From an uncultured Chitinophagaceae bacterium (lineage in GTDB: Bacteria; Bacteroidota; Bacteroidia; Chitinophagales; Chitinophagaceae): a stretch of DNA of 64,000 bases. Positions 2,038 to 64,000 of the stretch are shown here, in pieces; positions within the stretch are counted from its first letter, which is position 1; each line of letters opens with the position of its first letter. The stretch is from positions 1-64,000 of the forward strand of contig CALJNC010000048.1 in the NCBI GenBank assembly GCA_937981995.1. Direction: 5' to 3'. The position numbers and the translations under genes are program-made. Below the pieces are notes generated by a model that was not told the origin of the DNA, made no database searches, and worked only from the letters and a program-made list of their open reading frames with translations.

Positions 2038-3251
2038 TCCTGTTTTACAAATTGTTTTGTGCTAATAGTTCCTTCACTTTCAACTTGTAATAGATAAATA
2101 CCAGCCGCTAAGTTAGTTATATCAATAGTCGCTTTGCTACTAGCAGTTATTTCATAACTAGCTTCTAGTACAGCACCATATATTGTAGTTAGTTTGATTG
2201 ATTTAATTTTTTTATCAATTGAAATAAATAACTCCTCTTGAGCAGGATTAGGATACAGGTTAATATTGTTGTCTTTTACTATATCATTTACAGCTACAGC
2301 AGCAGGTAAATCAAATTTCCATAAATCACTAATATCTATTTGGCTATTGCCAAAACCGGCACCACTTGTTAAGTATACTGTGTTATTAATTACAAAACTA
2401 CCCGGCGCCCAACGCCCTGTACCTGGGTGTGCTGTTTTGCTAGTCCATGCATTAGTTGCTGGGTCATACTCCCACATTTCACCGGTAGCTAAATTTCTAT
2501 GGTCTTCACCTTGACCACTTAATAAATATCCCTTACCACCATAAGCAAATTGTGTACCAGCTACACGCCCTTGGGTAGGTAAACTAGGAATCGCAGTCCA
2601 TGCTTTTGTAACAGCGTTGAACTTAAAAAAGTCTTTATATATGCTTTGACCATTGTGGCCGCAACCTACATAAGCATCATCTCCTATACCAAAAAAGTAA
2701 GGGTGGTGACGCACTGCCGCAGGAAGGTTTGCTTGCTGAGTCCATGTATTTGTTGCGATATCATACTCCCACCAATCGTTTAAGTTGCCGGTTGCACCAT
2801 CTCCACATCCTACATAAACTTTACCCGGGGTAGAAACCATAGCTGGGTGTCTGCGACCTTGGCCAGGACAACTTGCCAATTGTGTCCAAGTGTTATTAGA
2901 AGCATCAAACTCCCATAAATCATTGTAATAGGTTACAGAGGTTGAAGAGGCAACTAGTCCAAAACCTACATAACCTTTACCCCCACTTTCTACGCCATAA
3001 GCAAAACTTCTTGGGCCTCCAGGAAAGTTAGCTAAACGAGTCCATGTATCATTTGAAGGGTCATATTGATAGCAATCACTATTGTAAAAATTACCAGCAC
3101 CAGTAGTTATATAGCCCATTTGACCAATAGAAAATGTAACCGGGTGGTTTCTTGCCTCATAAGTAGCAGGTGGTGTACCAAGCTGTGTCCATGTTTGAGC
3201 TGAAGCTTGTAATGTGCATACGCTCATAAATATTAGTAAAAAGTGTTTCAT
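2034..3251 (-). CDS. Secreted Kelch-repeat protein with T9SS type A sorting tail
   Basis: 405 residues. A signal peptide (MKHFLLIFMSVCTLQASAQ) is followed by about five Kelch units, each with the pattern 'WEYD/F-N-TW' after a Gly-Gly or Gly-Tyr pair (for example YDPSNDTWTRLANFP, FDASNNTWTQLASCP, YDIATNTWTQQANLP). These should form a beta-propeller. The last 80 residues are a type A Por-secretion tail: LYPNPAQEEL near residue 330 and LAAGIYLLQV near the end. By family knowledge it should cross the outer membrane through T9SS and be anchored or released at the surface. The ligand is unknown. It stands alone and converges on the small membrane protein. Confidence 0.88.
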   Translation of the reverse strand: MKHFLLIFMSVCTLQASAQTWTQLGTPPATYEARNHPVTFSIGQMGYITTGAGNFYNSDCYQYDPSNDTWTRLANFPGGPRSFAYGVESGGKGYVGFGLVASSTSVTYYNDLWEFDASNNTWTQLASCPGQGRRHPAMVSTPGKVYVGCGDGATGNLNDWWEYDIATNTWTQQANLPAAVRHHPYFFGIGDDAYVGCGHNGQSIYKDFFKFNAVTKAWTAIPSLPTQGRVAGTQFAYGGKGYLLSGQGEDHRNLATGEMWEYDPATNAWTSKTAHPGTGRWAPGSFVINNTVYLTSGAGFGNSQIDISDLWKFDLPAAVAVNDIVKDNNINLYPNPAQEELFISIDKKIKSIKLTTIYGAVLEASYEITASSKATIDITNLAAGIYLLQVESEGTISTKQFVKQD

Positions 3252-3427
3252 AATAGTTTGTATTTTTTCGAAATACGAAAATAATTATAGCTAAGAGCAA
3301 TAAAGATAAAAGTCTGTCATTTTATTATGACTAAACGATGACAAAAAAACTGTAAGTTGAATAGGGGGTATTTTAAGAGCTGCTAACTATCCACTATTTA
3401 AATTATATTTACCGCAAAATTGTACTT

Positions 3428-4936
3428 ATGAGCACCACACTTCTTCTTAGTTGTGTTATTGGATATTTTATACTGTTGATAATAATTGGTTTTATTACAT
3501 CACGTAAAAGTGATAATAATTCTTTTTTTATAGGAAACCGTAATTCAAACTGGGCACTTGTAGCCTATGGAATGATTGGGGCATCTTTATCGGGTGTAAC
3601 ATTTATTTCGGTTCCTGGTGCTGTAGGTACTGGAGCGTGGAGTTATTTGCAAATGGTGCTGGGTTATGTACTTGGCTATTTAGTTATAGCTAAAGTATTG
3701 CTACCGCTTTATTATAAAATGAACTTAACCTCCATTTATACTTACCTAAAAAATCGTTTTGGTTTTTGGAGTTATAAAACAGGTTCGGTTTATTTTTTAA
3801 TTTCAAGAATTATAGGTGCAAGTTTTCGCTTGTTCCTTGTAGCAATGGTTTTGGATCGTTTTATCCTTAGCCAGTATGGTATATCATTTGAAATGACGGT
3901 GGCTATAACCATATTGCTAATTTGGATTTACTCATTTAAAGGAGGTATTAAAACCATCGTTTGGACAGATACATTACAAACAACTTTTATGCTCGTATCG
4001 GCTATCGCGGTTATCTTTTTTATTGCCTCTGATTTGGATTGGGGTGCAAGCGAAACTATAAAAAAGGTTCTTGCTAGCTCATACTCCAAAACGTTTCACT
4101 GGGACTTTAGTGCCGGCAGTCACTTTGTAAAAATGTTTTTGAGCGGGATGTTAATTACTATTGTAATGACTGGTTTGGATCAAGATATGATGCAAAAAAA
4201 CTTGAGCTGTAAAAACATTGGAGACGCTCAAAAAAATATTTACTGGATGAGCAGTGCCTTGGTAATTGTAAATATTTTATTTCTAGCCTTAGGCGCTATG
4301 TTATATTTATACGCTGAGCAAAAAGGAATTGGTGGGTTAAACTTTGATGCTACCGGTGCCGTAGTTGGAGATTGTAATTTGATGTTGGATGGTGATTGTT
4401 ATAAGAAAGATCAATTGTTTCCATTTTTATCTGTAAATCATTTTCCTCCTTTTGTGGGCGTATGTTTTATATTAGGATTAATGGCAGCGGCTTATTCTAG
4501 TGCTGATTCAGCCTTGACTGCGCTTACCACAAGTTTTTGTGTAGATATTTTACCGCAAGATGAAAGTGAGATTCCTAAAAAGACGCGATACCTGGTTCAT
4601 ATTGGTTTTTCGGTTGTGTTATTGATTGTGATAATTATATTTAAAAACTTAAGCGATGACTCGGTTGTAAACAATTTATTTAAAGCGGCAGGTTATACCT
4701 ATGGTCCTTTATTAGGTATGTTCTTCTTTGGCATTTTTACTAAAATGAAACCTAAGGATGTATTGATTCCAATTATTTGTATAGCAGCACCTATACTTAC
4801 TTACTTTATAGATGCAGCGCTTGCTGCAGGTGGTTTTAAACTTGGCTTCCTTATTTTATTATTAAATGGTTTGCTTACTTGGATTGGCTTATATATTGCT
4901 ACACTTATAAATAATTCAACGCTTGAAGCTAAGTAA
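3428..4936 (+). CDS. Sodium:solute symporter (SSS family)
   Basis: 502 residues with about 13 transmembrane segments. The N-terminus places the characteristic SSS stretch 'GNRNSNWALVAYGMIGASLSG' at about residues 37-57, and a later conserved block reads LGLMAAAYSSADSALTAL near residue 350. These fit the LeuT-fold Na+-coupled symporters of the SSS family. The substrate (sugar, amino acid, carboxylate or other) cannot be read from the sequence. A -7-like TATATTTA lies about 20 bp upstream. The methyltransferase gene begins 15 bp after its stop, so the two are probably co-transcribed. Confidence 0.88.
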   Translation: MSTTLLLSCVIGYFILLIIIGFITSRKSDNNSFFIGNRNSNWALVAYGMIGASLSGVTFISVPGAVGTGAWSYLQMVLGYVLGYLVIAKVLLPLYYKMNLTSIYTYLKNRFGFWSYKTGSVYFLISRIIGASFRLFLVAMVLDRFILSQYGISFEMTVAITILLIWIYSFKGGIKTIVWTDTLQTTFMLVSAIAVIFFIASDLDWGASETIKKVLASSYSKTFHWDFSAGSHFVKMFLSGMLITIVMTGLDQDMMQKNLSCKNIGDAQKNIYWMSSALVIVNILFLALGAMLYLYAEQKGIGGLNFDATGAVVGDCNLMLDGDCYKKDQLFPFLSVNHFPPFVGVCFILGLMAAAYSSADSALTALTTSFCVDILPQDESEIPKKTRYLVHIGFSVVLLIVIIIFKNLSDDSVVNNLFKAAGYTYGPLLGMFFFGIFTKMKPKDVLIPIICIAAPILTYFIDAALAAGGFKLGFLILLLNGLLTWIGLYIATLINNSTLEAK

Positions 4937-7315: not shown

Positions 7316-7882
7316 ATGTTGCGTCAATTTAACGGGAAAGAATTTAGAAAAGTAATGCCTTCTGAAGAAATTCAGAAAAGGATTAAGCAATTAGGTGCAG
7401 AAATTACTGAAGACTATAAGGATAAGCAGCCTGTATTCCTTGGGATATTAAATGGTTGTTTCATGTTTGCGGCAGATTTATTTAAATGCTTAGAGCTTGA
7501 TTGTACTATTACTTTCGTAAAACTTGCTTCTTACGATGGAACGAAATCTACCGGTAATGTTGTAACAGCAATTGGGCTTGATCAATCCTTGCACGATAAA
7601 GATGTTATTATAATAGAAGATATAGTTGATACAGGGAACACACTTACTGATTTTATGAAAACCTTAAAAGAGAAAAATCCCAAAAGTGTGCGCATATGTA
7701 CCTTGTTTAGCAAACCAGATGTACATAAAGGAAAATTGCCATTGGATTACGTTGGCTTTGATATCCCAGACAAATTTATCCTTGGGTATGGATTAGATTT
7801 CGATGGATTAGGAAGAAACTTACCTGATTTATATAAAATTGTAACTTCTGATGAAGATACTTATCGTTTTAAAGACGACTAG
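7316..7882 (+). CDS. hpt: Hypoxanthine phosphoribosyltransferase
   Basis: Purine salvage enzyme that joins hypoxanthine (often guanine) to PRPP, giving IMP or GMP. At 188 residues it is a normal length. The PRPP-binding motif [14 protein letters not shown] sits near residues 97-110. Upstream, [15 protein letters not shown] and [10 protein letters not shown] match the conserved N-terminal and flexible-loop regions. [17 protein letters not shown] near the C-terminus is the purine-binding block. It starts 5 bp after the glucosaminidase gene and its stop overlaps that of convergent lipA by 4 bp (CTAG, 7879-7882). Together with guaA downstream it covers guanine and hypoxanthine nucleotide supply. 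Confidence 0.95.
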
Positions 7883-8787
7883 TTTGATTGACTAAGAAAA
7901 TCTTCTCTACCGCTATATAAGTGCTTTTCTGAATGATAAGATGATCTTACCAATGGGCCACTTTCTACATGATCTAAACCAATTTCGTAGCCCACTTTTT
8001 GATATTCCGCGAATTCGTCTGGATGTACAAATCGATTTACAGGTAAATGCTTTGCAGTAGGTTGTAAGTATTGACCAATTGTCACTACATCACACCCATT
8101 GTCTTTAAGGTCATGAAGTGTTTGTATTACTTCTTCTTTTACCTCACCTAAACCAAGCATGATACCACTTTTAGTACGCATGCCCGCCTCTTTCAATACA
8201 CGGATCACTTCCATACTTCTATGATATTTTGCTTGTATTCTTACTTTTTTGGTAAGTCGTTCCACCGTTTCAATATTGTGAGACACCACATCAGGAGCTA
8301 CTTCAGCTACGCGTAATATATTTTCTTTTTCGCCCTTAAAATCTGGGATTAAGGTTTCTAAGGTTGTTTCAGGATTTAAAGCTCTTACAGCTTTTACTGT
8401 ATTGGCCCATATTATACTACCGCCGTCTTTTAATTCATCGCGGTCAACGCTTGTTAAAACAGCATGTTTCACCTTCATAAGATTAATTGCTTCAGCAACT
8501 CGTTGGGGCTCATCCCAATCCACAGGGTCAGGTCGACCAGTTGCTACCGCACAAAAACCACAAGATCGTGTACAGGTATTACCTAAAATCATAAAGGTTG
8601 CTGTACCCGCACCCCAGCATTCGCCCATGTTAGGGCAATTACCACTTTGGCAAATTGTATGCAAGTTATATTGATCTACTAGGGAGCGAACATGCTTATA
8701 GTTTTCGCCTGTAGGTAGTTTTACTCGTAACCAATTCGGTTTTTTATACCTTGGTTTATCGTCTTGTATTGTTGGTCCGCAGCTCAT
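7879..8787 (-). CDS. lipA: Lipoyl synthase (radical SAM)
   Basis: 302 residues. It inserts two sulfurs into octanoyl groups on E2 and GcvH proteins. Both iron-sulfur sites are visible: the auxiliary cluster cysteines in [14 protein letters not shown] (residues about 45-58) and the radical SAM CxxxCxxC in CTRSCGFC (about 72-79). The C-terminal serine that ligates the auxiliary cluster is in [13 protein letters not shown] (near residue 285). [10 protein letters not shown] and TIGQYLQPT are conserved core blocks. It is transcribed convergently with hpt, with overlapping stop codons. lipB is not in the window. Confidence 0.96.
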
Positions 8788-8905
8788 TAACTTTGCAAAA
8801 GTACACCCAAAAAGGACTTAAAAATACGCTGAAAGCTATTTGTAATTTTTTTGTCACAAATTATTAGTCTTGTTAACTTTTCTTTATAATTCCCAATAGA
8901 TACTT

Positions 8906-8913
8906 TATATTTG
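8906..8913 (+). promoter_or_regulatory. Putative -7 element TATATTTG
   Basis: TATATTTG matches the Bacteroidota -7 consensus TAnnTTTG and lies 24 bp before the ATG at 8938. The leader after it is A-rich (AAAATAAATAGAAA) with no Shine-Dalgarno sequence. No clear -33 TTTG sits at the expected distance. Confidence 0.5.
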
Positions 8914-8937
8914 GGAGTACTTTAAAATAAATAGAAA

Positions 8938-10899
8938 ATGAATAAAATACTTTTACTCTTTACCGCATTTTGCTTCGCAGTGAGTTCTGCAGTAGCTCAA
9001 GGTCAGGTAAATCAAACAACTTCTGATTTGATCCCACAAGATCAATATGTGCCAGGCACAATGCCTGCTCCGCCTGCCGGCAAACAACGTGGTGTAGGTG
9101 ATCCTTTCCCTAGTACAATAGGTACTAAAACGGTTATAGGTAAAACTACCTATGATTTACAAACAAATGGTGCTTTACAAAATCGTATCATGGTTACAGG
9201 TGGTAATGAGGTTCATGCTGCATGGACAATGTCACAAGAAACCGGTGTTACTAGTACATCTTCTTTTGCAGATAGAGGTACTGGATATGCTTATCACAAT
9301 GGTACAGCTTGGGGCGCAGCTCCTACTGCTCGTATAGAAGGTGCTACTCGTACTGGTTTTGGTGGTATGGCTGTTAATGGTAGTGGTAATGTTGTATACA
9401 TGGCGCATAGCGGTGCATACGATATCATGCTTAGCGAAAAAGCTAGTGGTACATGGAACACAGTAACAACAGCATTAAACTCTAGCCCAATTCAAGCAAT
9501 TTGGCCTGATGTAGCTACTTCTGGTAACTGGATGTATGTTATTTGTGGTTCTGCTGATTCAAATAGCCGTACAAATGGTATTCGTAATGGTTACTACTTT
9601 TCTCGTTCTAATGATAATGGAGCTACTTGGATAGATAATGTAATTCCTATGCCTTTAATTGATAGTGCTGGTCACTATAGAGGAGGTGGTAATGCATACA
9701 GCATTTCTGCACGTGATTCTATTGTTGCCATCGTATTTGGAGATGTAGCTACTGATTTAACTTTGTTACAATCTAATGACTACGGTGCTACTTGGACTAA
9801 AAAAGTAATTTGGGATTGGCCATTAGAGTATTACAATTTTGGTAGTATGTCTATGACTGATACGAATAGTGATAATATTCCTGATACATTATATACTATT
9901 GATGGTGCATTTGATGTAGCTATTGATAAAGATGGTGAATCTCATATCGCATTCTCTACACTACGTGTATTTAAAGACGGAACGTCTACTGGTTATAGTT
10001 ACTTTATGTTTACTTCTGGTATGAGATATTATAACTCAATAGCTGATTCTGTTGCTGAGGTTGATAATATTTTTAGCCTTCACTATGCTTTATGTAATGG
10101 TGATAGCGTTATGTCTGCGATTCCAAATTATACAACAGCTACTGGAGTGGGCGATGCAAACTACAATACAATCGGATTGCTTACTATGCCTCAGGTATCT
10201 GTAAATGAAACAAACGATGATATTTACTTAACGTATACGGCTATTGCTGATGGTGACCAAACAGAAATTGATATTGCACACCCATATTGGTTTGGTGTAT
10301 CAGGTATCGATGGTCAGCCTTACAGAGAAGTAATGGTATTACCATCTAATAATAAAGGTGCAAGCTTTGGGTATCCAGTAAACGTTTCACGTACTGGTCA
10401 CTATGAAGAAGCATTTGTATCTGTACCAGAAAGAGTTTCAGGTACTGATTTACACTTATTATATCAAGGTGATATTGAGCCAGGAACAATTCTTCAAAAT
10501 GAAGATACATATGATTCTGATTTCGAAAATTACATCATTCACCAACAAGTTACTATCAGTGAAATTTTTGCTGAAAGTTTAAGTATTGGTGCACCATGTA
10601 ACGCATTTGAATTACCTCTTTCAATATCTGATGTAGTAAATTCATTTAACGGAACGGTAAATATTTATCCTAACCCGGCCGTTGATTTTGTAACAGTTGA
10701 ATTGGATTTAGACAAAACAGCTAAGCAAGTTTCTTACGAATTGTTTGATTTGACAGGTCGTTTAATTTCTACTGTAACACATAGTAATATCTCAACTGAT
10801 AATGTTCAGATTAGTGTACAAGACTTAAGTGCTGGTAACTATATTTTAAAAGTAAATGCTGATAATGCATTAAGCACTCATAAAGTAAGTGTAAAATAA
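8938..10899 (+). CDS. Secreted Asp-box (BNR-like) protein with T9SS type A tail
   Basis: 653 residues. The signal peptide (MNKILLLFTAFCFAVSSAVAQ) is followed by a roughly 500-residue body with Asp-box-like motifs, SRSNDNGATW near residue 222 and SNDYGATW near 279, of the kind found at blade turns in sialidase-like beta-propellers. I see no sialidase catalytic Arg triad, so an enzymatic role is not supported. The C-terminus has the type A T9SS tail (VNIYPNPAVDFVTVEL, then LSAGNYILKV). It is a stand-alone transcription unit: a -7 element upstream and a strong hairpin terminator downstream. Probably an abundant secreted or surface protein. Confidence 0.85.
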   Translation: MNKILLLFTAFCFAVSSAVAQGQVNQTTSDLIPQDQYVPGTMPAPPAGKQRGVGDPFPSTIGTKTVIGKTTYDLQTNGALQNRIMVTGGNEVHAAWTMSQETGVTSTSSFADRGTGYAYHNGTAWGAAPTARIEGATRTGFGGMAVNGSGNVVYMAHSGAYDIMLSEKASGTWNTVTTALNSSPIQAIWPDVATSGNWMYVICGSADSNSRTNGIRNGYYFSRSNDNGATWIDNVIPMPLIDSAGHYRGGGNAYSISARDSIVAIVFGDVATDLTLLQSNDYGATWTKKVIWDWPLEYYNFGSMSMTDTNSDNIPDTLYTIDGAFDVAIDKDGESHIAFSTLRVFKDGTSTGYSYFMFTSGMRYYNSIADSVAEVDNIFSLHYALCNGDSVMSAIPNYTTATGVGDANYNTIGLLTMPQVSVNETNDDIYLTYTAIADGDQTEIDIAHPYWFGVSGIDGQPYREVMVLPSNNKGASFGYPVNVSRTGHYEEAFVSVPERVSGTDLHLLYQGDIEPGTILQNEDTYDSDFENYIIHQQVTISEIFAESLSIGAPCNAFELPLSISDVVNSFNGTVNIYPNPAVDFVTVELDLDKTAKQVSYELFDLTGRLISTVTHSNISTDNVQISVQDLSAGNYILKVNADNALSTHKVSVK

Positions 10900-48487: not shown

Positions 48488-48924
48488 AGAATCTAGCAGG
48501 AATATTTTTTTTAATTATAAGTTTACATTTTACTTGCATTGGGCAAAATAACAGGTCTATGCCTATGTTTCCTGGTGGAGAGCAAGCATTAGCTAAATTT
48601 ATTTATACCAATTTGCACTATCCTGACAAGGCTCAGATGTTGGGAATTACTGGATTAGTCAAAGTGAATTTTATGGTGTTGCCCACCGGTAAAATTTTAA
48701 ATGCGCAAATCGTAAAAGAGATAGGCGGAGGTTGTGGTTTAGAGGCCCTTCGTATTGTTAGTTTTATGCCGTCTTGGATACCAGGAACTATAAATGGAAA
48801 ACCTGCAAGTATTTCAGTTACTTTACCAATCGTTTTTGATATGAGGGAAGTAAAAACTAAAAGAAGAAAAGTAAGTAGAAAAGAGCGGAGGAAATTACGA
48901 AAAGAGTCAAAAATGAGGAATTAG
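48484..48924 (+). CDS. Small secreted TonB_C-domain protein (copy 3 of 3)
   Basis: 146 residues, starting at GTG 48484 inside the stop codon of copy 2. Short signal-like segment (NLAGIFFLIISLHFTCIGQ), then PMFPGGEQALAKFIYTNLHYPDKAQ, GLVKVNFMVLPTG, KEIGGGCGLEALRIVSFMPSW and a strongly basic tail (KRRKVSRKERRKLRKE). A Cys in the signal region (FTC-IGQ) could make it a lipoprotein. Its stop overlaps that of the convergent response regulator by 4 bp. Confidence 0.83.
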   Translation: MKNLAGIFFLIISLHFTCIGQNNRSMPMFPGGEQALAKFIYTNLHYPDKAQMLGITGLVKVNFMVLPTGKILNAQIVKEIGGGCGLEALRIVSFMPSWIPGTINGKPASISVTLPIVFDMREVKTKRRKVSRKERRKLRKESKMRN

Positions 48925-49580
48925 TCTTTGATTAAACCAAATTCTAATGCCTTGCGAACCAAGCCAACTGAGTTTTTTACATCAAATTTTAGCAACAAGT
49001 TTTTGCGGTGTGTCATTACGGTATTCGCACTGATAAAAAGTTTTTCAGCAATTTCATTTGTGTTCATCTCTTCTCCAATTAGTAGCAATACATCTTTTTC
49101 CCTATCTGAAATAATAGGTATAATTGGTTTGCGACCACCTTTTTTATCGCCCGTTTCTTCCGCTAGTAAGGATTTAGATATATAATCTCCTATATAGCTT
49201 TCCCCACTATATACTTGACGTATGGCAGTTTCAAGATTTTCAATATCCGTTGCTTTAGAGAGGTAACCTTTGGCTCCAGCTTTCAATAATTTTTTTACAA
49301 TAACGCTTTCTGTGTAAGAGGAAACTCCAATTATTTTTAGGTCTGGATTTAATTTGAGCAATGCGGTTGCACATTCAATTCCCGTCATGTCTTCTAAATC
49401 AATGTCCTGAAGCACTATATCTGGGGATACATTAATTTCCTTTGGGTTTAAGGTTTCTATTGCTTCGCACCCGCTGAGCGCAAAGCCAATTACCTCAATG
49501 TCCTTTAAATACTTAAAGTGATCTGTAAAGGAATCTACCAAAATTTTATGGTCGTCTATTATGAATACTTTTATGCTCAT
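48921..49580 (-). CDS. Response regulator, NarL/LuxR type (system A)
   Basis: 219 residues. The receiver domain has the acidic pocket (FIIDDHKILV), the likely phospho-acceptor Asp in DIVLQDIDL (near residue 55), the conserved Ser in VSSYTE and the Lys in GAKGYLSKA. The DNA-binding HTH follows: SDREKDVLLLIGEEMNTNEIAEKLFISANTVMTHRKNLLLKF, a LuxR-type helix-turn-helix, near residues 155-205. The gene overlaps the kinase by 4 bp and is the last of a likely operon that starts at operator A1. It is the natural candidate to bind the A-type palindromes. Confidence 0.95.
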   Translation of the reverse strand: MSIKVFIIDDHKILVDSFTDHFKYLKDIEVIGFALSGCEAIETLNPKEINVSPDIVLQDIDLEDMTGIECATALLKLNPDLKIIGVSSYTESVIVKKLLKAGAKGYLSKATDIENLETAIRQVYSGESYIGDYISKSLLAEETGDKKGGRKPIIPIISDREKDVLLLIGEEMNTNEIAEKLFISANTVMTHRKNLLLKFDVKNSVGLVRKALEFGLIKD

Positions 49581-51526
49581 GCTATAGGAATCGTAATTTT
49601 AAAGTGGGTGCCACTGTCTTCTATTAATTTTATTTCTCCATTAATATAATTCACACGACTCTTAATTCCATTTAAACCTAAGGTGTTTTTATCATTCCAT
49701 TTTTTATGGGTGATACCTTTTCCATTATCTCGTATTCGCAGCGTCAACACATTTTCTTTTATATTGGAGATTACCGAAACTGTATCTGCACCACTATGTT
49801 TTACAATGTTATTGTAAGCTTCTTGTACAATCCTATAAATATTCAGTTCTAATTTTTTGTCATCTATTCTTTTGAGGGCTTCAATGTTTGCTTTTAGTTC
49901 AATATTATTTTCAGTGAGTTGTGATTCCAATTCTTTTACAGAATCGTGAAGGCCCGCGTGCTCCAAAATTTTTGGTGTCATACGATGGCTTATGCGGCGC
50001 ACTTCTTGAGAGGCACTATTAATCATGCCATCTAGCTCATCTGCTATATTCATTTTTTGGATGGACTCAATTTCTTTTTGGATACTTAAGAACTTCATTT
50101 TAATAGAAGTCATGAGTGTACCAATATTGTCATGCAAGTCTTGCGCTATGCGCTTTCGTTCTTCTTCTTGACCTTCTATAATTGAAGACATAGAGATCAA
50201 TTTATTTTCTTTTTCTAGGTTTTCAATTTTTACATTCTGATTTAAAGCAATCTCTTCATTCAGTCTTTTTTCAAGAGCTACTTTCTTTTTGTAATTATAA
50301 AACAAGAGCCCAGCAATAGCTGCGAGCGCTAACAAACCTAATAGTCCTAAGCCATAATTTCTGATTTTTATTTTTTGCTTATTAATCGTTTCTTGCTTTT
50401 TAGCTACATTGTATTTGCTTTCGATTAAATGAAAGCTGCTATCCCGTTTTGCATTGTTCATGCTATCCTTGGCTTTGTGAAAAATGTCAGAATAAAATAA
50501 TGCTTGTTTGAAATCCTTATCTTTTTTAAAGATTTGGCTTCCAATTTTGCCAATCATTTCTTGCTGCTGCATTGTTCCTTTCTCAATTAAAGAGTTGGCC
50601 TCTTGCAGATACTTCTTTGCTTTATTTAAATCGCCTTGTTTTTCATAAGCCTTTGCTAGTAATACTTTGAGGTAATGATAACTTTTCTCCTGAGATGTCT
50701 TATCAAAACCATTATGCACTTCTTGCATAATATTTAGGGCCTCATTTTCTTTCCCCTGCTTTTGCATTACTTCGGCCAGTGCAATTTGATTATCGAGGTA
50801 GAACATGGCGTAAACTTTGCCCATTTCTCCTGCCTTGGTCATGTGATAGACCGCCGAGTCTAATAAATTTAATCGATTATAAACAACACCTAAATTTCCA
50901 TGAGTTTCAATAATAGTAGGGGCGTAGAACTTATAGTTGATGCTATTCTGGTACATTTCTTTGGCCTTTTCTAATTCATTAGACTCTTGGTAAATGTAGC
51001 CAACACCAAATTGTGCAATGAGTAAGGAATTGGTGTCTTTTATCTCGGCAAAGTAATCACGAGCATCTAATTTTAATTTTAAAGCCTCGTCCTTTTTGCC
51101 TTGATACAGTAACACATCGGCCTTATTATCTTGTAGTTGATAGGCTTGTTTTTTTCTATTAAATTTTTTAGCCAAGGCAATGCCGTTTTCAAAACTGATG
51201 ACAGCCTTGTCTAATTCATTCGTTTGCTGATATATTAATGCATTTAAATTTTGAACCTGTATTAATCCTTTTTTGTAATTAGCTTTTTTGGATAAAACAT
51301 TTGCTTGCTCAGTGAGTTCGAGTACTTCCTCAAATTTATCAATTTTTGTAAAGAAAAGTTCGGTCGCGTAATCTAGAATAGCGTATGCTTTTGAACTATC
51401 ACTTGTAGCATTGTTGACCTTACCCTTTAAGGAGTCTAGTTTAGATTGCGCGTTCGCGCCAAACGTGCAAAGTACAAAGAGAAAGAAAAGGAAGCTTGTT
51501 TTTTTCAATTGGTTTCTATTCATCAC
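49577..51526 (-). CDS. Sensor histidine kinase with TPR sensor domain (system A)
   Basis: 649 residues. Signal peptide ending GANAQ, then TPR repeats from about residue 40 to 370 as a likely periplasmic or outer-side sensor, one membrane helix (GLGLLGLLALAAIAGLLFY near 390-408) and a short coiled coil. The kinase core is HisKA_3: ERKRIAQDLHDNIGTLMTSI (near 455, phospho-His in DLHD), with a HATPase domain whose N-box is IVQEAYNNIVKHS and G-box GKGITHK, then GLNGIKSRV. This is the kinase type paired with NarL/LuxR regulators, and the regulator follows with a 4-bp overlap. Upstream genes 51544 and 52278 are probably on the same transcript (17-bp gap). Confidence 0.95.
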   Translation of the reverse strand: MMNRNQLKKTSFLFFLFVLCTFGANAQSKLDSLKGKVNNATSDSSKAYAILDYATELFFTKIDKFEEVLELTEQANVLSKKANYKKGLIQVQNLNALIYQQTNELDKAVISFENGIALAKKFNRKKQAYQLQDNKADVLLYQGKKDEALKLKLDARDYFAEIKDTNSLLIAQFGVGYIYQESNELEKAKEMYQNSINYKFYAPTIIETHGNLGVVYNRLNLLDSAVYHMTKAGEMGKVYAMFYLDNQIALAEVMQKQGKENEALNIMQEVHNGFDKTSQEKSYHYLKVLLAKAYEKQGDLNKAKKYLQEANSLIEKGTMQQQEMIGKIGSQIFKKDKDFKQALFYSDIFHKAKDSMNNAKRDSSFHLIESKYNVAKKQETINKQKIKIRNYGLGLLGLLALAAIAGLLFYNYKKKVALEKRLNEEIALNQNVKIENLEKENKLISMSSIIEGQEEERKRIAQDLHDNIGTLMTSIKMKFLSIQKEIESIQKMNIADELDGMINSASQEVRRISHRMTPKILEHAGLHDSVKELESQLTENNIELKANIEALKRIDDKKLELNIYRIVQEAYNNIVKHSGADTVSVISNIKENVLTLRIRDNGKGITHKKWNDKNTLGLNGIKSRVNYINGEIKLIEDSGTHFKITIPIA

Positions 51527-52680: not shown

Positions 52681-52726
52681 CAAAATTAGGTTTAGGGTAC
52701 TTGCTGTGTTTCACTATAAATAGTGA
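52681..52726 (-). promoter_or_regulatory. Operator A1 plus -7 element, upstream of the system A operon
   Basis: The palindrome TCACTATAAATAGTGA (52711-52726) is followed, reading towards the minus-strand gene, by exactly 22 bp and then TAATTTTG (52681-52688), a full TAnnTTTG match. The ATG is 23 bp further on. The same layout recurs at 54002 and 54918. Inference: an activator site centred near -42 for the operon that contains the kinase and regulator themselves. Confidence 0.75.
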
Positions 52727-58375: not shown

Positions 58376-59005
58376 GTGACAACAATATTAATATACGAAG
58401 ACAATATTGACTATGCTCAAAGTCTTTCTGCCTTTTTTGATATGGAGAAAGACCTAAAGGTAATTGGTCATTATGAAAACCCTAGTGAAGTAGCTACGCA
58501 GATTAAGGAAATCAATCCTGACGTGGTGATCATGGATATTGATATGCCCAAAATGAATGGCATAGAAGCGCTCAAAGAAATTCGAAAAACGGACTCCGAA
58601 GCTTTAGTCTTAATGCTTACAGTTTTTGATGACGAGGATCGGATTTTTGAAAGTATACAAAGTGGTGCAAATGGCTTCTTACTGAAAGAAAGTAAACCGA
58701 AAAAAATTATTGATGCGATACGTGATGTGGTAGACGGTGGAGCTCCCATGACAGGTTCAGTGGCGCGGAAAGTTTTGAACCAGTTTAATGTAATAAAGCC
58801 CAAAGAGGAGACTATTGATTTATCTAAACGTGAAAAAGAGATACTTAGTTTTTTAGTAAATGGAATGAGTTATAAAATGATTGCGAGTGCATGCGCTATT
58901 TCTTATCATACTGTAAATGCACATATTCGTAAAATTTACGATAAGCTGCATGTGAGCTCTGCTACGGAAGCTGTAGCTAAAGCTATGAAAAATAGATTAA
59001 TATAA
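58376..59005 (+). CDS. Response regulator, NarL/LuxR type (system B)
   Basis: 209 residues from GTG 58376; the leader CTAAACCAAACAACC precedes it and there is no in-frame ATG nearby. Receiver domain: ILIYEDNIDYAQSL (acidic pair), VVIMDIDMPKMNGIEAL (phospho-Asp near residue 55), MLTVFDDE and LLKESKP (Lys). LuxR HTH near 145-200: LSKREKEILSFLVNGMSYKMIASACAISYHTVNAHIRKIYDKL. Two histidine kinases of the matching HisKA_3 type are encoded about 2-5 kb away on the other strand, without a regulator of their own in the window. Confidence 0.94.
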   Translation: MTTILIYEDNIDYAQSLSAFFDMEKDLKVIGHYENPSEVATQIKEINPDVVIMDIDMPKMNGIEALKEIRKTDSEALVLMLTVFDDEDRIFESIQSGANGFLLKESKPKKIIDAIRDVVDGGAPMTGSVARKVLNQFNVIKPKEETIDLSKREKEILSFLVNGMSYKMIASACAISYHTVNAHIRKIYDKLHVSSATEAVAKAMKNRLI

Positions 59006-59054: not shown

Positions 59055-59870
59055 CTAGTTAATTTTATAACCAGTAAAATGATTGTAACCACCGTTGCTG
59101 CCAAAATTTAATGTACCCGCAGTATAAATTCTAGGTTTTACAACATCACCTTGAGACAATTTGATTGTCATTGCACATTTGCCTGACCAAGCTGTGCTAG
59201 ATGATGGTGTAGACCAATTCATTTCTGTGTTCGTGTTAATAAAGAAACCTACACTAGTTTGTGCAGGAGTAGACATTGACGCAAAAACTACAGATACGTT
59301 AAATACATACACTCCGTCTTCAGGAACTGTAAACTCTCCAGTAGTTGGATTATAGTTATTACCATCATCATGAACCTGACTAGAGAATATTGGAGATGTC
59401 CCGGATGTTACGCTACCTGAACTGGGAGAGCCTTCAGCCCTAAATGAAATAACTTGCTTAGGTGCTACTTCTTTAGCATATAAGGCAAATGGAACACTAA
59501 GCAATTGAGTTCGGCCTACATCTGTAAATGTACTACCACCGTTTGGGTCAATGCGTACTTGTAGGTATTTATCGCCATTGCTCCAATCAATATTAGAAAA
59601 GGTATTACTTATAGGCGTTCCGTCACCTACTTTTACATTATAAAGTCCATACGTATTAGTGGTTACGGAATGATCTTCGGTGTATAGGACACTTCCGGTT
59701 GAACTTCCTTGTCGCATTACTAGGCGTAATTTAATTGCTTGTCCAGATAAGGCTTGCCCCGATGCATTACGTGCAACCCCTTGGTAGTTAAATAAATCAG
59801 GTGCTTGTGCAAATAAAGTACTCATGCTTAAAAAGAAAGCTACGGCTGCTAATAAAATTTGTTTTTTCAT
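59055..59870 (-). CDS. Secreted C1q/TNF-like protein of regulon B
   Basis: 271 residues. Signal peptide MKKQILLAAVAFFLSMSTLFAQ. Residues 25-135 are the domain often found at the start of Bacteroidota fibre-like proteins (FNYQGVARNASGQALSGQ, YTEDHSVTTNTYGLYNVKVGDG, LQVRIDPNGGSTF, then QLLSVPFALYAKEV). Residues about 145-271 look like a C1q/TNF jelly-roll: IFSSQVHDDGNNYNPTTGEFTVPEDGVYVFNVSVVF. Such domains trimerise and bind ligands. The gene starts 25 bp after gene 59896 and is probably in the same unit, under operator B1. Confidence 0.82.
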   Translation of the reverse strand: MKKQILLAAVAFFLSMSTLFAQAPDLFNYQGVARNASGQALSGQAIKLRLVMRQGSSTGSVLYTEDHSVTTNTYGLYNVKVGDGTPISNTFSNIDWSNGDKYLQVRIDPNGGSTFTDVGRTQLLSVPFALYAKEVAPKQVISFRAEGSPSSGSVTSGTSPIFSSQVHDDGNNYNPTTGEFTVPEDGVYVFNVSVVFASMSTPAQTSVGFFINTNTEMNWSTPSSSTAWSGKCAMTIKLSQGDVVKPRIYTAGTLNFGSNGGYNHFTGYKIN

Positions 59871-59895: not shown

Positions 59896-60399
59896 TTAGT
59901 TGTTTTTTTGAATTTTATAAGTGTTTCTTGAAGTTGTTTTGTTATTTGTAAAATGTACGTTTAGTAGATAGTTGCCAACGGAAAAGCCGCTAATATCAAT
60001 TTGCTGTTTTTCTGTACCAGAAGTCAAAACACACTCTTTACGAATTAATGTTTTACCGGTAGCATCAATCAATAAAAGTTGCATTTGTCCTCCCGTAGTA
60101 AATTGTGGTTGAAGGTTAAGTATAGCAGCTGTTGGATTAGGGTAAATACTTAATTGATCTTGTGAGATAATTATATCTTCGGTGCTCGTTGCAAATTTTT
60201 CTTCAGGCTGTAATAATCCTTGTGTGATCACAATTGCAGTGCTCGTTTCGGTAGATACCAAGGTCATCTCACCTATGGAATAATCAAAGGAATTGCTTCC
60301 AATAGTACCACCTCCGCCACTAGCATTTAAGGTGCTTTGGGCATACAAGCTACCGCTGCAAAGCAGCAGGCCCAGAATAGTTATTTTTAGTTTTTTCAT
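59896..60399 (-). CDS. Short secreted protein with T9SS type A tail (regulon B)
   Basis: 167 residues from ATG 60399, which puts MKKLKITILGLLLCSGSLYAQ as signal peptide; an upstream ATG at 60495 is rejected as it reads through the leader. The N-terminal part is short (about 60 residues: GGTIGSNSFDYSIGEMTLVS) and the rest is the type A sorting domain (SIYPNPTAAILNL, then VGNYLLNVHF), so most of the protein is export signal. It leads the unit with gene 59055. Operator B1 lies about 98 bp upstream, with a 68-nt leader after the -7 element. Confidence 0.82.
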   Translation of the reverse strand: MKKLKITILGLLLCSGSLYAQSTLNASGGGGTIGSNSFDYSIGEMTLVSTETSTAIVITQGLLQPEEKFATSTEDIIISQDQLSIYPNPTAAILNLQPQFTTGGQMQLLLIDATGKTLIRKECVLTSGTEKQQIDISGFSVGNYLLNVHFTNNKTTSRNTYKIQKNN

Positions 60400-60466
60400 A
60401 ATTTTAATTTGTTTTTTTGGTTTTACTTGCCACGCTAAAGGTGTGGTTTTGTGTTTATTTATAATA

Positions 60467-60514
60467 CAAAGGTGCGGTGCGTATTTACTTCTCACAATAG
60501 CGAATATTCGCTAT
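60467..60514 (-). promoter_or_regulatory. Operator B1 plus -7 element, upstream of gene 59896
   Basis: ATAGCGAATATTCGCTAT (60497-60514) is a perfect 18-bp palindrome. Exactly 22 bp later (minus-strand reading) comes CACCTTTG (60467-60474). The intervening bases GCACCGCACC and the TGTG just after the palindrome are shared with B2. The leader downstream contains an imperfect CCACGC/GTGTGG inverted repeat. Confidence 0.78.
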
Positions 60515-60544
60515 GCGGTAAATGATGGTCGATTGCAAAATTGA

Positions 60545-60952
60545 CTACTGTCTGGTTAACTCAATTTGTTCCGTTAAGCCTAAAGTGTTAGCTCCTACAG
60601 TCCCTTTATTTTTACTTGTGAACTTAATAGGGAACTCCATGGATCCTGCGCAGGGATAGCTAAATGAAGTTGAATCTGAGAAGGTTAGATTAATATTGTC
60701 ATTGGTGCCGTTATTCGTTATTTCCCAATTGAATGTTAGAATAGGGCCAATTAAAGTGCCATTAAGCTCACCACAGTCAAAAGCGAAGAAGTCTGAATTC
60801 ATGCTCGCACCCGTGCCATCCGAATTTAGAGTCAAGGTGCCGCCGTCTGAGGTATTCCATATGCCAGGCGCAGTTTCAAAAGCATCTTTTTTACAAGATG
60901 TAATTGTAATGATAATTAATAGTGCGAGTGTTGTGATTTTAAATAGTTTCAT
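60545..60952 (-). CDS. Small lipoprotein of regulon B (lipocalin-like)
   Basis: 135 residues. Lipobox TITSC-KKD with Cys near residue 20. The body is a short beta barrel or sandwich candidate: GIWNTSDGGTLTLNSDGTG, LTFNWEITNNGTNDNI and the final LGLTEQIELTRQ fit small lipocalin-like lipoproteins of Bacteroidota. Operator B2 starts 54 bp before the ATG. A single-gene unit, with operator B1 of the next unit between its end and gene 59896. Confidence 0.78.
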   Translation of the reverse strand: MKLFKITTLALLIIITITSCKKDAFETAPGIWNTSDGGTLTLNSDGTGASMNSDFFAFDCGELNGTLIGPILTFNWEITNNGTNDNINLTFSDSTSFSYPCAGSMEFPIKFTSKNKGTVGANTLGLTEQIELTRQ

Positions 60953-60975
60953 ATTGATTTGTTTTATTTATAACA

Positions 60976-61023
60976 CAAAGGTGGCGTGCGTAATTTTCCC
61001 CCACAATAGCGAATATTCGCTAT
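60976..61023 (-). promoter_or_regulatory. Operator B2 plus -7 element, upstream of gene 60545
   Basis: ATAGCGAATATTCGCTAT (61006-61023), identical to B1, then exactly 22 bp to CACCTTTG (60976-60983); the ATG at 60952 is 24 bp beyond. It lies at the 3' end of the broken kinase gene, whose stop is at 61058. Confidence 0.78.
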
Positions 61024-61057
61024 AGGGTGTCCTGAAACGATCTTGCCCGTTTAGGCC

Positions 61058-62032
61058 TTATAATGGAAATGAAAGATTGACGATAAACTGTTTGTTTTTC
61101 TGCGTCAAATTTAATTGGCCGCCTATATCGTCTGTTCTTTTTTTGATGTTGCTCAAGCCCAAGCCGCTTGCTTCGCTTGTATTTATTTGTTGCGCCGTAT
61201 CGTTTCGGATTTGTAGTTTGAGTGCATCTTTTTCTTTTTGTAAGGAAGCCATAACGACTTCGCCTGTGCCATATTTTGTGGCATTGGTAATGGCTTCTTT
61301 AAAAATCAAGAAAATAGTTTGTCGCAGTTCGGCAGCTACTTTTTCATCTTTGCTTTCTATATTATGCTCTAGTTGAAACTCTACATCCTTAGCGCCTAGC
61401 ATATCTTCGGCAAAGTCAATCATGCGGTACGCAAGATCCATTACATTATCCTTGCGGGAGTCAATTGCCCAAACGGTGTCTCGCATTCTTCGGGTAGCAT
61501 CTCGGCTCATGGAGGCAATTTTGCCTACGGAACCTTTAAGCTCTTTGCTGGCTTTCATTTCCAACAGTTCGGATTGCATAGATAGGCTGGTGAGCAAGGT
61601 GCCTACATCATCGTGTAGGTCGCTACTCATTTTGGTTCTAAAGGTTTTGTCGCGTTCTTCTTGTTCTTTTATGTTGCGGTATTTTATACGTTTTATTATA
61701 AAGTATATAGAGGACAGTAAACCCGCTAAAATTAAAAAGAATATTATTTTATTTCTATTGGCTGTAGCCGCCACAATTTTTTTGTCGGCATTTAGTTGAA
61801 TGATTTTTTTTTCTTTTTCGATATTACTTATCCTAACTAGATAACGTTGTGTAGCGTTGGTATTTTCTTTTCTATATTTTCTATTAGTCAGCGTCATTAA
61901 TTCTTTTTGGTGCTGATACGCTTGTGAGTAATTGTTTCTTGAGTCAAAAAACTTGACAAACGCTTTATTCAGATTTATTTTAAAATCTAAATCATCAGAT
62001 TTTTCTGCAATGGCATTAGACCGTTTAAGCAT
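61058..62032 (-). CDS. C-terminal fragment of the broken kinase: membrane helix, HisKA_3, HATPase
   Basis: 324 residues from ATG 62032 as it stands. Membrane helix KIIFFLILAGLLSSIYFI (near residue 95), phospho-His block MSSDLHDDVGTLLTSLSMQ (near 133), the N-box IFKEAITNATKYGTG and the Gly-rich end GLGLSNIKKRTDDIGG are complete. It could be made as an internal product if translated from 62032, but would lack the sensor. Closely similar over the whole kinase part to the gene at 62942. Confidence 0.8.
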   Translation of the reverse strand: MLKRSNAIAEKSDDLDFKINLNKAFVKFFDSRNNYSQAYQHQKELMTLTNRKYRKENTNATQRYLVRISNIEKEKKIIQLNADKKIVAATANRNKIIFFLILAGLLSSIYFIIKRIKYRNIKEQEERDKTFRTKMSSDLHDDVGTLLTSLSMQSELLEMKASKELKGSVGKIASMSRDATRRMRDTVWAIDSRKDNVMDLAYRMIDFAEDMLGAKDVEFQLEHNIESKDEKVAAELRQTIFLIFKEAITNATKYGTGEVVMASLQKEKDALKLQIRNDTAQQINTSEASGLGLSNIKKRTDDIGGQLNLTQKNKQFIVNLSFPL

Positions 62033-62194
62033 TTGATGAATCTCATTGATGCTTACTTTGCCAGCAAATGTTCTTGGATCATTTTTTTTGCCAATCTAGG
62101 TAGGTATGCACTAATTCTGGGATAACCCAACCTACCGAAGATATACCATCATTATTCTCGAATAGTGAGAGTGATATTTTCAGGTGTTGTTCAC

Positions 62195-62860
62195 TCAGGA
62201 TGTATTTTTTCTGATCTTTATACAAGGAGCCCAAATTGAACTCAGCAACTGCCTGAAGCCTAAACTGCTTGAATTTTTTTGCCTGATTAATGCATTGTAC
62301 AAAGTATAATTTAGCACTGTCTTTTTTTCTAACCTATAGTAAGCATCGCCCAGGTTATTAATATTGTGGGTAGTTAGTTTTGGTCGACCAATTTTTTCAG
62401 CCAGATCAATCACTCTGTGATTGGTTTTAATGGCTTCAATAGCAGGTAACATCCAAGTTCTTTGGGTAAGTGCTTTAATTAACCCCATTGTGTCTTTCAG
62501 ATTGACATACGTTTTTTCTGCTAAACTATTGTATTCTATAAAATGGAAATTGTCATGTCGTTTCCGGTAAATGGTAGCTATTTTAACATAGGAATCTGCT
62601 TCTTTTTTGACTTCATTTAGCTTCTTATAAATTTTGCTTGATAAGATTAAATACTTTTTAGACGAATCATATTCATCGGTTTTGAAAAAATAATATGAAC
62701 CTATTTTGAATAGTTGGTTGGCTTGCTCTAACGGATCTTTTTGATTTTTTAATTCGTTTTTATAAATTGTAATGCTATCCTTTTCTTGTGCGTATAAGCT
62801 TTTACTCAAGAAGAAAAGAATTGCCAATACCAAAAATGAAAAGGATACTTTTGAACTCAT
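62195..62860 (-). CDS. N-terminal fragment of the broken kinase: signal peptide and TPR repeats
   Basis: 221 residues, of which the first about 179 are in the proper frame: signal peptide ending SLYAQ, then TPR-like helices (QANQLFKIGSYYFFKTDEYDSSKKYL, ADSYVKIATIYRKRHDN). The last 40 residues (from TVLNYTLYNALI) are out of frame after the A7 run. The ATG lies only 7 bp from the -7-like TACCTTTA of operator B3, so the message would be nearly leaderless. Confidence 0.7.
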   Translation of the reverse strand: MSSKVSFSFLVLAILFFLSKSLYAQEKDSITIYKNELKNQKDPLEQANQLFKIGSYYFFKTDEYDSSKKYLILSSKIYKKLNEVKKEADSYVKIATIYRKRHDNFHFIEYNSLAEKTYVNLKDTMGLIKALTQRTWMLPAIEAIKTNHRVIDLAEKIGRPKLTTHNINNLGDAYYRLEKKTVLNYTLYNALIRQKNSSSLGFRQLLSSIWAPCIKIRKNTS

Positions 62861-62866
62861 TGTAGG

Positions 62867-62914
62867 TAAAGGTAATTCTCTCGCTTCTAGGATACAATAG
62901 CGAATGTTGGCTTT
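62867..62914 (-). promoter_or_regulatory. Operator B3 (decayed) plus -7-like element, upstream of the broken kinase
   Basis: Reading the minus strand, AAAGCCAACATTCGCTAT (62897-62914) keeps one intact half (ATTCGCTAT) of the B palindrome and six of nine bases in the other. Exactly 22 bp later is TACCTTTA (62867-62874), one base off TAnnTTTG, and the shared TGT follows the palindrome. The spacing match to B1 and B2 is what makes this more than chance. Confidence 0.6.
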
Positions 62915-62941: not shown

Positions 62942-64000
62942 TTAGAGCGAGAAAGAAAGTTGGATTTTAAAGCTGTTGTCCTTATGCTCAAAAGAGAAAC
63001 TTCCATTGAGGTCAGTTGCACGCTTTTTGATATTACTCATACCAAGGCCACTAACTTCTTCTAAATTGACAGTCGATTCGGTTTGATTAGAAACAGATAA
63101 GTTCAACTTGTCGTTTTCTTTGTTAAGAGAAGCTGTTACTAAATCACCACTACCGTATTTAGCAGCATTGGTAATAGCTTCTTTAAAGATTAGGAAAATG
63201 TTTTGACGAAGCTCCGCAGAAATTTTATCATCTTTATTTTGAATATTATGTTCTAATTGAAATTCTACATCCTTTGAATCAAGTATATCATTAGCAAAGT
63301 CTATCATACGATAGGCAAGGTCCATGACATTATCCTTGCGGGAGTCAATAGCCCATACAGTGTCACGCATGCGACGAGTAGCGTCTCTACTCATGTCGGC
63401 GATCCTTCCCACTGTTCCTTTGTTACCATCTGTTGTTTTCATTTCTAGGAGTTCGGATTGCATGGAAAGACTAGTAAGTATAGTACCTACATCGTCGTGT
63501 AGGTCGCTACTTAGTTTGGTTCTGAATTTTTTATCGCGATCTTCTTGTTCTTTTAAGTTTTTATATTTTATTCGTTTTACTATAAAGTAAATTGATGATA
63601 GTAAACCCAAGAGAATTAGGAAGAAAATTATTTTGTTTCTATTAGCTGTAGCGCTAGCAATTTTTTTATCTGCATTGAGTTGAATGATTTCTTTTTCTTT
63701 GTCTGCCGTTTTCAGTTCTTCAGAAAATTTGGCGGCAGCTTTGATTTGTTCATCTTCATATTGACTCTCTTTTAAAGCCATCAACTTTTGTTGATAGCTA
63801 ATAACGGAATCTTTATTATTTTTAGATTTGTAGTAGGCTATGAATCCATTAATCACAGCCTGTTTTGAGGAAAATGCTTGTGTTTCATTGGCCAATTGCT
63901 CAGCCTCAGTAAGTAAAGTAAATTTATCAATAGAACCCATCTGCGCCTTACACTCGTTAGGGTTTGCTTTCTCCCATACGTCTGCCAGTAAAATAATACT
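62942..64000 (-). CDS. Sensor histidine kinase (system B, copy 2), 5' end outside window
   Basis: At least 353 codons, open to the window edge (the reading continues upstream of ATG 63940 as ADVWEKANPNECKAQ), so the TPR sensor start is missing. Membrane helix KIIFFLILLGLLSSIYFI, phospho-His block LSSDLHDDVGTILTSLSMQ, N-box IFKEAITNAAKYGSG and end motif GLGMSNIKKRATDLNG are intact. Nearly the same as the kinase part of the broken gene just downstream, so the two are a tandem duplication. Probably pairs with the regulator at 58376. Confidence 0.92.
   Translation of the reverse strand, partial: SIILLADVWEKANPNECKAQMGSIDKFTLLTEAEQLANETQAFSSKQAVINGFIAYYKSKNNKDSVISYQQKLMALKESQYEDEQIKAAAKFSEELKTADKEKEIIQLNADKKIASATANRNKIIFFLILLGLLSSIYFIVKRIKYKNLKEQEDRDKKFRTKLSSDLHDDVGTILTSLSMQSELLEMKTTDGNKGTVGRIADMSRDATRRMRDTVWAIDSRKDNVMDLAYRMIDFANDILDSKDVEFQLEHNIQNKDDKISAELRQNIFLIFKEAITNAAKYGSGDLVTASLNKENDKLNLSVSNQTESTVNLEEVSGLGMSNIKKRATDLNGSFSFEHKDNSFKIQLSFSL

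Follow-up and report, generated by a model that had tools for sequence, protein, structure and literature searches.

Two-component systems are abundant in Bacteroidota, and binding sites are known for few of them. Among the described systems that come closest to the one analysed here, PorX falls outside the GerE-domain regulators and regulates the T9SS secretion machinery. The operators of NarL are 7-2-7 inverted heptamers (TACYYMT), and the class II activators CRP and FNR are centred at -41.5. For Porphyromonas gingivalis, passages in two papers describe FimS as a periplasmic-TPR sensor kinase and FimR as the regulator that activates fimbrial surface-protein genes (PMC5706477, PMC1974823). 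Neither a palindrome nor a fixed spacing is named in these passages of PMC5706477 and PMC1974823.

We analysed a second palindromic operator (operator B) and its regulon in the window, i.e. the whole stretch of 64,000 nucleotides from an uncultured Chitinophagaceae bacterium. The regulon B circuit appears to resemble FimS/FimR most among the known Bacteroidota systems. The TPR part of the kinase of a sister species matched the NCBIfam FimS model at 1.8e-9 with partial coverage; with 36.5 bits against a cut-off of 600, this kinase is not a FimS equivalog. The FimS model was not among the matches of the kinase in the analysed genome itself. The targets are also different, as they are proteins with a T9SS tail or a fibre-like appearance and a lipoprotein.

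The likeness to NarL, NarP and VraR extends over the full length of the regulator (receiver and GerE domain). The operator, however, does not fit the NarL heptamer class: it consists of hexamers around a 4-nt centre, with variable half-sites, and the promoters are of the Bacteroidota -33/-7 type. With CRP and FNR at class II promoters, the system shares an operator directly next to the -35/-33 region, with a fixed centre that is predicted to lie near -43.5, but the DNA-binding family and the sigma factor are different and activation is proposed. PorX/PorY-SigP likewise connects a two-component system of Bacteroidota with T9SS biology, but the genes found here encode cargo proteins, whereas PorX controls the machinery. 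The PorX model matched the regulator through the receiver only (47 bits, cut-off 300). A NarL-type two-component system is in itself of a known kind; the relation between recognition helix and operator is the newest and most testable part.

Operator B and its genes

The features are listed with their positions in the window:

58376-59005, plus strand: NarL/FixJ-type response regulator (Response_reg + GerE) with the recognition helix SYHTVNAHIRKIY; proposed binder of operator B
59055-59870, minus strand: C1q-domain protein; second gene of the transcription unit of operator copy 1
59896-60399, minus strand: small exported protein, T9SS sorting domain (Por_Secre_tail); the first of the genes behind copy 1
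60467-60474, minus strand: -7 box of operator copy 1, CACCTTTG, gap 22 nt
60497-60514, minus strand: operator B copy 1, ATAGCGAATATTCGCTAT; upstream of the T9SS-tail gene
60545-60952, minus strand: lipoprotein, lipobox ITSC; target of copy 2; the sister-species orthologue also has the operator
60976-60983, minus strand: -7 box of operator copy 2, CACCTTTG, gap 22 nt
61006-61023, minus strand: operator B copy 2, perfect; upstream of the lipoprotein gene
61058-62860, minus strand: frameshifted copy of a TPR-HisKA_3 sensor kinase; its two frameshifts lie about 240 bp from each other and compensate
62867-62874, minus strand: -7-like box of the decayed operator, TACCTTTA, gap 22 nt
62897-62914, minus strand: decayed operator B, three mismatches, all in the promoter-distal half; upstream of the broken kinase
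62942-64000 (continuing to 64768), minus strand: intact TPR-HisKA_3 sensor kinase, 608 aa; operator B at 64901-64918, box TATCTTTG

The regulator at 58376-59005 is of the NarL/FixJ type, with matches to PF00072 (7.1e-25) and PF00196 (1.6e-16) that are both over the cut-off. Its closest PDB relatives are VraR (1.4e-28) and NarL (2.3e-24), both matched over the full length. The genome contains five GerE hits, and this regulator is the only one with its helix type; the other GerE proteins (a membrane protein, the C11 regulator and regulator A) have different helices. The regulator's own gene has no operator B site in this genus.

An earlier note had placed two perfect 18-bp copies at 60497 and 61006 and a decayed copy at 62897, each 22 bp before a promoter box. 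Both the positions (60497-60514, 61006-61023 and, with three mismatches, 62897-62914) and the gap were reproduced on the minus strand, with the boxes CACCTTTG, CACCTTTG and TACCTTTA for 60497, 61006 and 62897, respectively. A genome-wide palindrome search strengthened the observation. Four perfect copies were found (60497, 61006, 64901 on the same contig past the end of the window, and C35:668), all of them intergenic and with a 22-nt gap to a Bacteroidota -7 box. For 64901 and C35:668, the boxes at exactly 22 nt are TATCTTTG and TACTTTTG, respectively; these two fit the TAnnTTTG consensus, and the two other boxes are one base off.

At up to three mismatches, 0.06 chance matches were expected from shuffled windows, and the genome-wide pattern search gave no control matches at the perfect level. 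One 3-mismatch match, C38:41461, has no -7 box at the 22-nt spacing and was rejected as probably due to chance. When the proximal half, the spacing and the box were searched together, the five known sites were recovered at 0-1 mismatches. The remaining matches needed two mismatches, some were reversed, and the control yielded a similar number. As the looser search adds nothing beyond the five sites above the control, regulon B is small: four live promoters and one decayed.

The copies at 60497 and 61006 are not independent, because their promoter regions (60454-60519 and 60963-61028) are 83% identical over 66 nt. This similarity points to a local promoter duplication.

The target list of the earlier note was upheld in part. 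The T9SS protein with its C1q-like partner and the lipoprotein remain on it, but the kinase behind 62897 is frameshifted and the intact kinase is served by the site at 64901. The protein at 59896-60399 is T9SS cargo by its match to PF18962 (8.1e-11, over the cut-off). Site 61006 would drive the lipoprotein, and the kinase at 61058-62860, next to this site, is the frameshifted copy with the decayed site 62897 of its own. This kinase and the operator at 62897 seem to have degenerated in parallel, although the frameshifts in the gene could also stem from an assembly error. The intact kinase (62942-64768) has HisKA_3 over the cut-off, as befits the partner of a NarL/FixJ-type regulator, and its TPR matches are below the Pfam cut-offs.

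The site C35:668 fronts a second pair, a small T9SS-tail-like protein and a protein of 895 residues. The latter had no Pfam match, and its N-terminus resembles the C1q protein; in this pair, the T9SS-tail and fibre-like resemblances were judged by eye only. The N-terminus of the C1q protein itself showed a weak match to a Bdellovibrio mosaic adhesive trimer fibre domain (2.7e-9, below the cut-off). Targets at other homologue loci also looked fibre-like by eye.

In the sister species (G001, same genus), the regulator is 86% identical and five operator B promoters were found, all with the 22-nt spacing. One of them precedes a fibre-like/T9SS pair adjoining the regulator and one the orthologue of the lipoprotein; the other three stand before a TPR kinase, an exported protein of 792 residues and an FG-GAP protein that carries a T9SS tail. 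The proximal half ATTCGCTATTG is invariant at all five sites, and all differences are in the distal half. Regulator and palindrome thus co-occur in the analysed genome (G000) and in G001, and neither was found in the third genus member (G002, 70% complete). In all 97 other related genomes searched, the palindrome was absent at up to one mismatch. The nominal chance of the exact spacing at nine live sites in two genomes is about 6e-17; as duplicates are included among these promoters, this value is too favourable. At locus L045 of G001, the TPR kinase 7828-9627 has no upstream operator B and its paralogue 2586-4424 has one; the tandem kinases may be wired differently.

Operator A (TCACTA-N4-TAGTGA) was found at 52711, 54032, 54948 and C82:12116 with the same 22-nt gap, and a second pair of regulator and kinase (48921-49580 and 49577-51526) is encoded nearby. 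The fourth copy (G000:C82:12116-12161) is on another contig, 22 nt from CAACTTTG. Neither of the other two genus members yielded a copy of operator A. The geometry had been described as the same for A and B. This holds for the gap, whereas the centre-to-box distance is 30 for A and 31 for B, equal within 1 bp. As the two regulators share 27% identity, the circuits look parallel. The proposal of a separate regulon parallel to A was borne out by the non-dispersed palindrome, its retention with the regulator in the sister species and the helix-tracking palindromes in about 210 homologues. These sequence comparisons give good support to the regulator at 58376-59005 as the one that runs regulon B.

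Operator position in homologues

The survey of homologues comprised about 210 regulators, of which 135 made up the discovery set and 75 were held out. At each distance from 10 to 64 nt upstream of the -7 box, 6-4-6 palindromes were counted. At 98 loci of distant homologues, 13 palindromes had a centre-to-box distance of 31, compared to 1.9 (sd 1.6) elsewhere. In the regulator's own promoter, the discovery set had 38 of 135 at 31 and 7 of 135 at 30, against 1.1 (sd 1.05) per other offset. The held-out set gave 17 of 75 at 31 and 14 of 75 at 30, against 0.71 (sd 0.86) elsewhere. A loosened -7 box raised the background (56 at offset 31 versus 28), so the stricter promoter-restricted counts were used.

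While the position is fixed, the half-sites vary: TCACAT-N4-ATGTGA, CTACAT-N4-ATGTAG, TCCCAT-N4-ATGGGA, CTACCA-N4-TGGTAG, TCACTA-N4-TAGTGA, TCATTG-N4-CAATGA and TAGCGA-N4-TCGCTA were all found. The next gene was often preceded by the same half-site, and its product usually had a signal peptide or lipobox (by eye). For 80 of the 98 homologous regulators, a related kinase was present within 3.5 kb.

A detectable site was absent from the own promoter of most homologues, and the more distant homologues followed the own-promoter rule at 3 of 25 loci only. For this reason, the rule is not claimed phylum-wide. No account of this operator rule was found in the literature searched, which took in little of the subscription journals.

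Recognition helix and half-site

The distance between half-sites correlated with the distance at four recognition-helix positions among the 77 regulators with an operator (partial Mantel r=0.46, 0 of 5000 permutations, receiver identity allowed for). With identical helix residues, the half-sites differed by 0-0.75 mismatches of 6, even at 30-50% receiver identity. Four differing helix residues corresponded to about 3.2-3.7 mismatches of 6. Recurrent pairings were I..TVRS with ATGTGA, TVRF with ATGTAG and ETVRT with ATGGGA, and a tyrosine at helix position 177 paired with a proximal triplet other than ATG.

The helix of the regulator studied here (SYHTVNAHIRKIY) is of the TVN[AN] class, which pairs with GCTA-ended operators (xxGCTA). 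TAGC-N8-GCTA occurred at the right spacing in 5 of 9 TVN[AN] loci compared to 1 of 200 others (Fisher 2.3e-7), and the single exception outside the class has a TVCN helix. The predicted motif was missing from 4 of the 9 TVN[AN] loci. One of the five positives, the Dyadobacter locus L119, had not been used in forming the rule; a long reading frame directly behind its site was not found. In other genomes, GCTA-ended operators at the rule spacing stood before genes at L227 (1808), L260 (1792) and L280 (1679); for L227 and L280, the gene products are long exported proteins.

In a column-by-column scan, the helix residues 178, 181, 177 and 185 were near the top, and the receiver residue Y13 was first. 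The receiver columns Y13 and L81 covary with the operator as strongly as the helix does, which means that part of the covariation is owed to shared ancestry. For pairs of low receiver identity, a crude comparison of helix class and half-site gave only 71 of 2000 permutations. The association tests weakened once homologues were collapsed into few clusters, and the tests with clusters at 50% identity were without power. Both the crude and the cluster-level tests were superseded by the partial Mantel test, which used the larger set. In the alignment to NarL, the covarying helix positions correspond to 184, 185, 188, 189 and 192, among which are base contacts of NarL.

We consider it somewhat probable that there is a large Bacteroidota family of NarL-type regulators that keep a fixed, stereospecific operator position on sigma-A -33/-7 promoters and have the half-site rewritten by few helix residues.

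Proposed mechanism and meaning

We regard it as quite probable that operator B is a site for the NarL-type regulator near -43.5, from which the exported proteins and the system's own TPR kinase would be activated in the class II manner. This reading builds on the observed sites, their spacing and conservation in the sister species, the position shared by homologues and the covariation of half-site and helix. In one mapped Flavobacterium, the sigma-A box spans -12 to -5 (PMC9723704), which puts the operator centre near -43.5. With a start site placed in this way, the fixed centre, at 30-31 nt upstream of the -7 box, abuts the -35/-33 region, as in class II activation.

The TPR kinase at 62942-64768 would sense an envelope or extracellular signal and phosphorylate the regulator. 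A regulator dimer would then read both half-sites of the palindrome and, bound at about -52 to -35 beside the -33 region, could contact RNA polymerase. Polymerase would thus be recruited to weak -7 promoters. The predicted targets are the T9SS-tail protein with its C1q/fibre-like partner, the lipoprotein and the C35 pair; the kinase gene itself would be a target too, which would give positive feedback.

The same regulator could instead act as a repressor, its site blocking RNA polymerase until a signal releases it. A bound dimer next to the -33 region could indeed hinder the polymerase, and two boxes are one base off the consensus (but two match it). A centre near -43.5 is, however, the classic position of a class II activator, and the exact spacing over many promoters and species suggests a stereospecific contact with the polymerase that simple repression does not need. 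Repression is therefore unlikely. It is less likely still that another DNA-binding protein reads the palindrome and the nearby regulator is a coincidence. The pairing of regulator and palindrome was deduced from sequence, and one target set is on a separate contig. Nevertheless, regulator and palindrome co-occur in the genus, homologous regulators carry positioned and helix-matching palindromes in their own promoters, and the remaining GerE proteins of the genome have different helices.

An upstream gene ends ahead of every copy of the palindrome, and the copies at 60497 and 61006 share 66 nt of similar sequence, as might be expected of an upstream-gene terminator or a dispersed repeat. A dispersed repeat would lie inside coding regions or downstream of genes, but there are only four perfect copies, none in coding sequence, and they are intergenic, promoter-proximal and at one spacing. 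A T-run does not follow, and the distance to the -7 box is fixed although the spacer sequences differ. Both readings were rejected on position and spacing, and we consider them highly improbable.

A fixed position together with a helix-to-half-site relation would make regulons predictable from sequence, and for many uncharacterised sensors it may become possible to predict the targets in this way. The analysis links TPR sensor kinases to the control of T9SS cargo, fibre-like proteins and lipoproteins. Operators A and B in one genome belong to a natural series in which a change of regulator specificity without crosstalk could be studied, and matched regulator-promoter parts could serve as genetic tools in Bacteroidota. 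If true, the relation would be a natural code that can be read, and hundreds of orphan surface-protein systems would have their operators and targets assigned by it.
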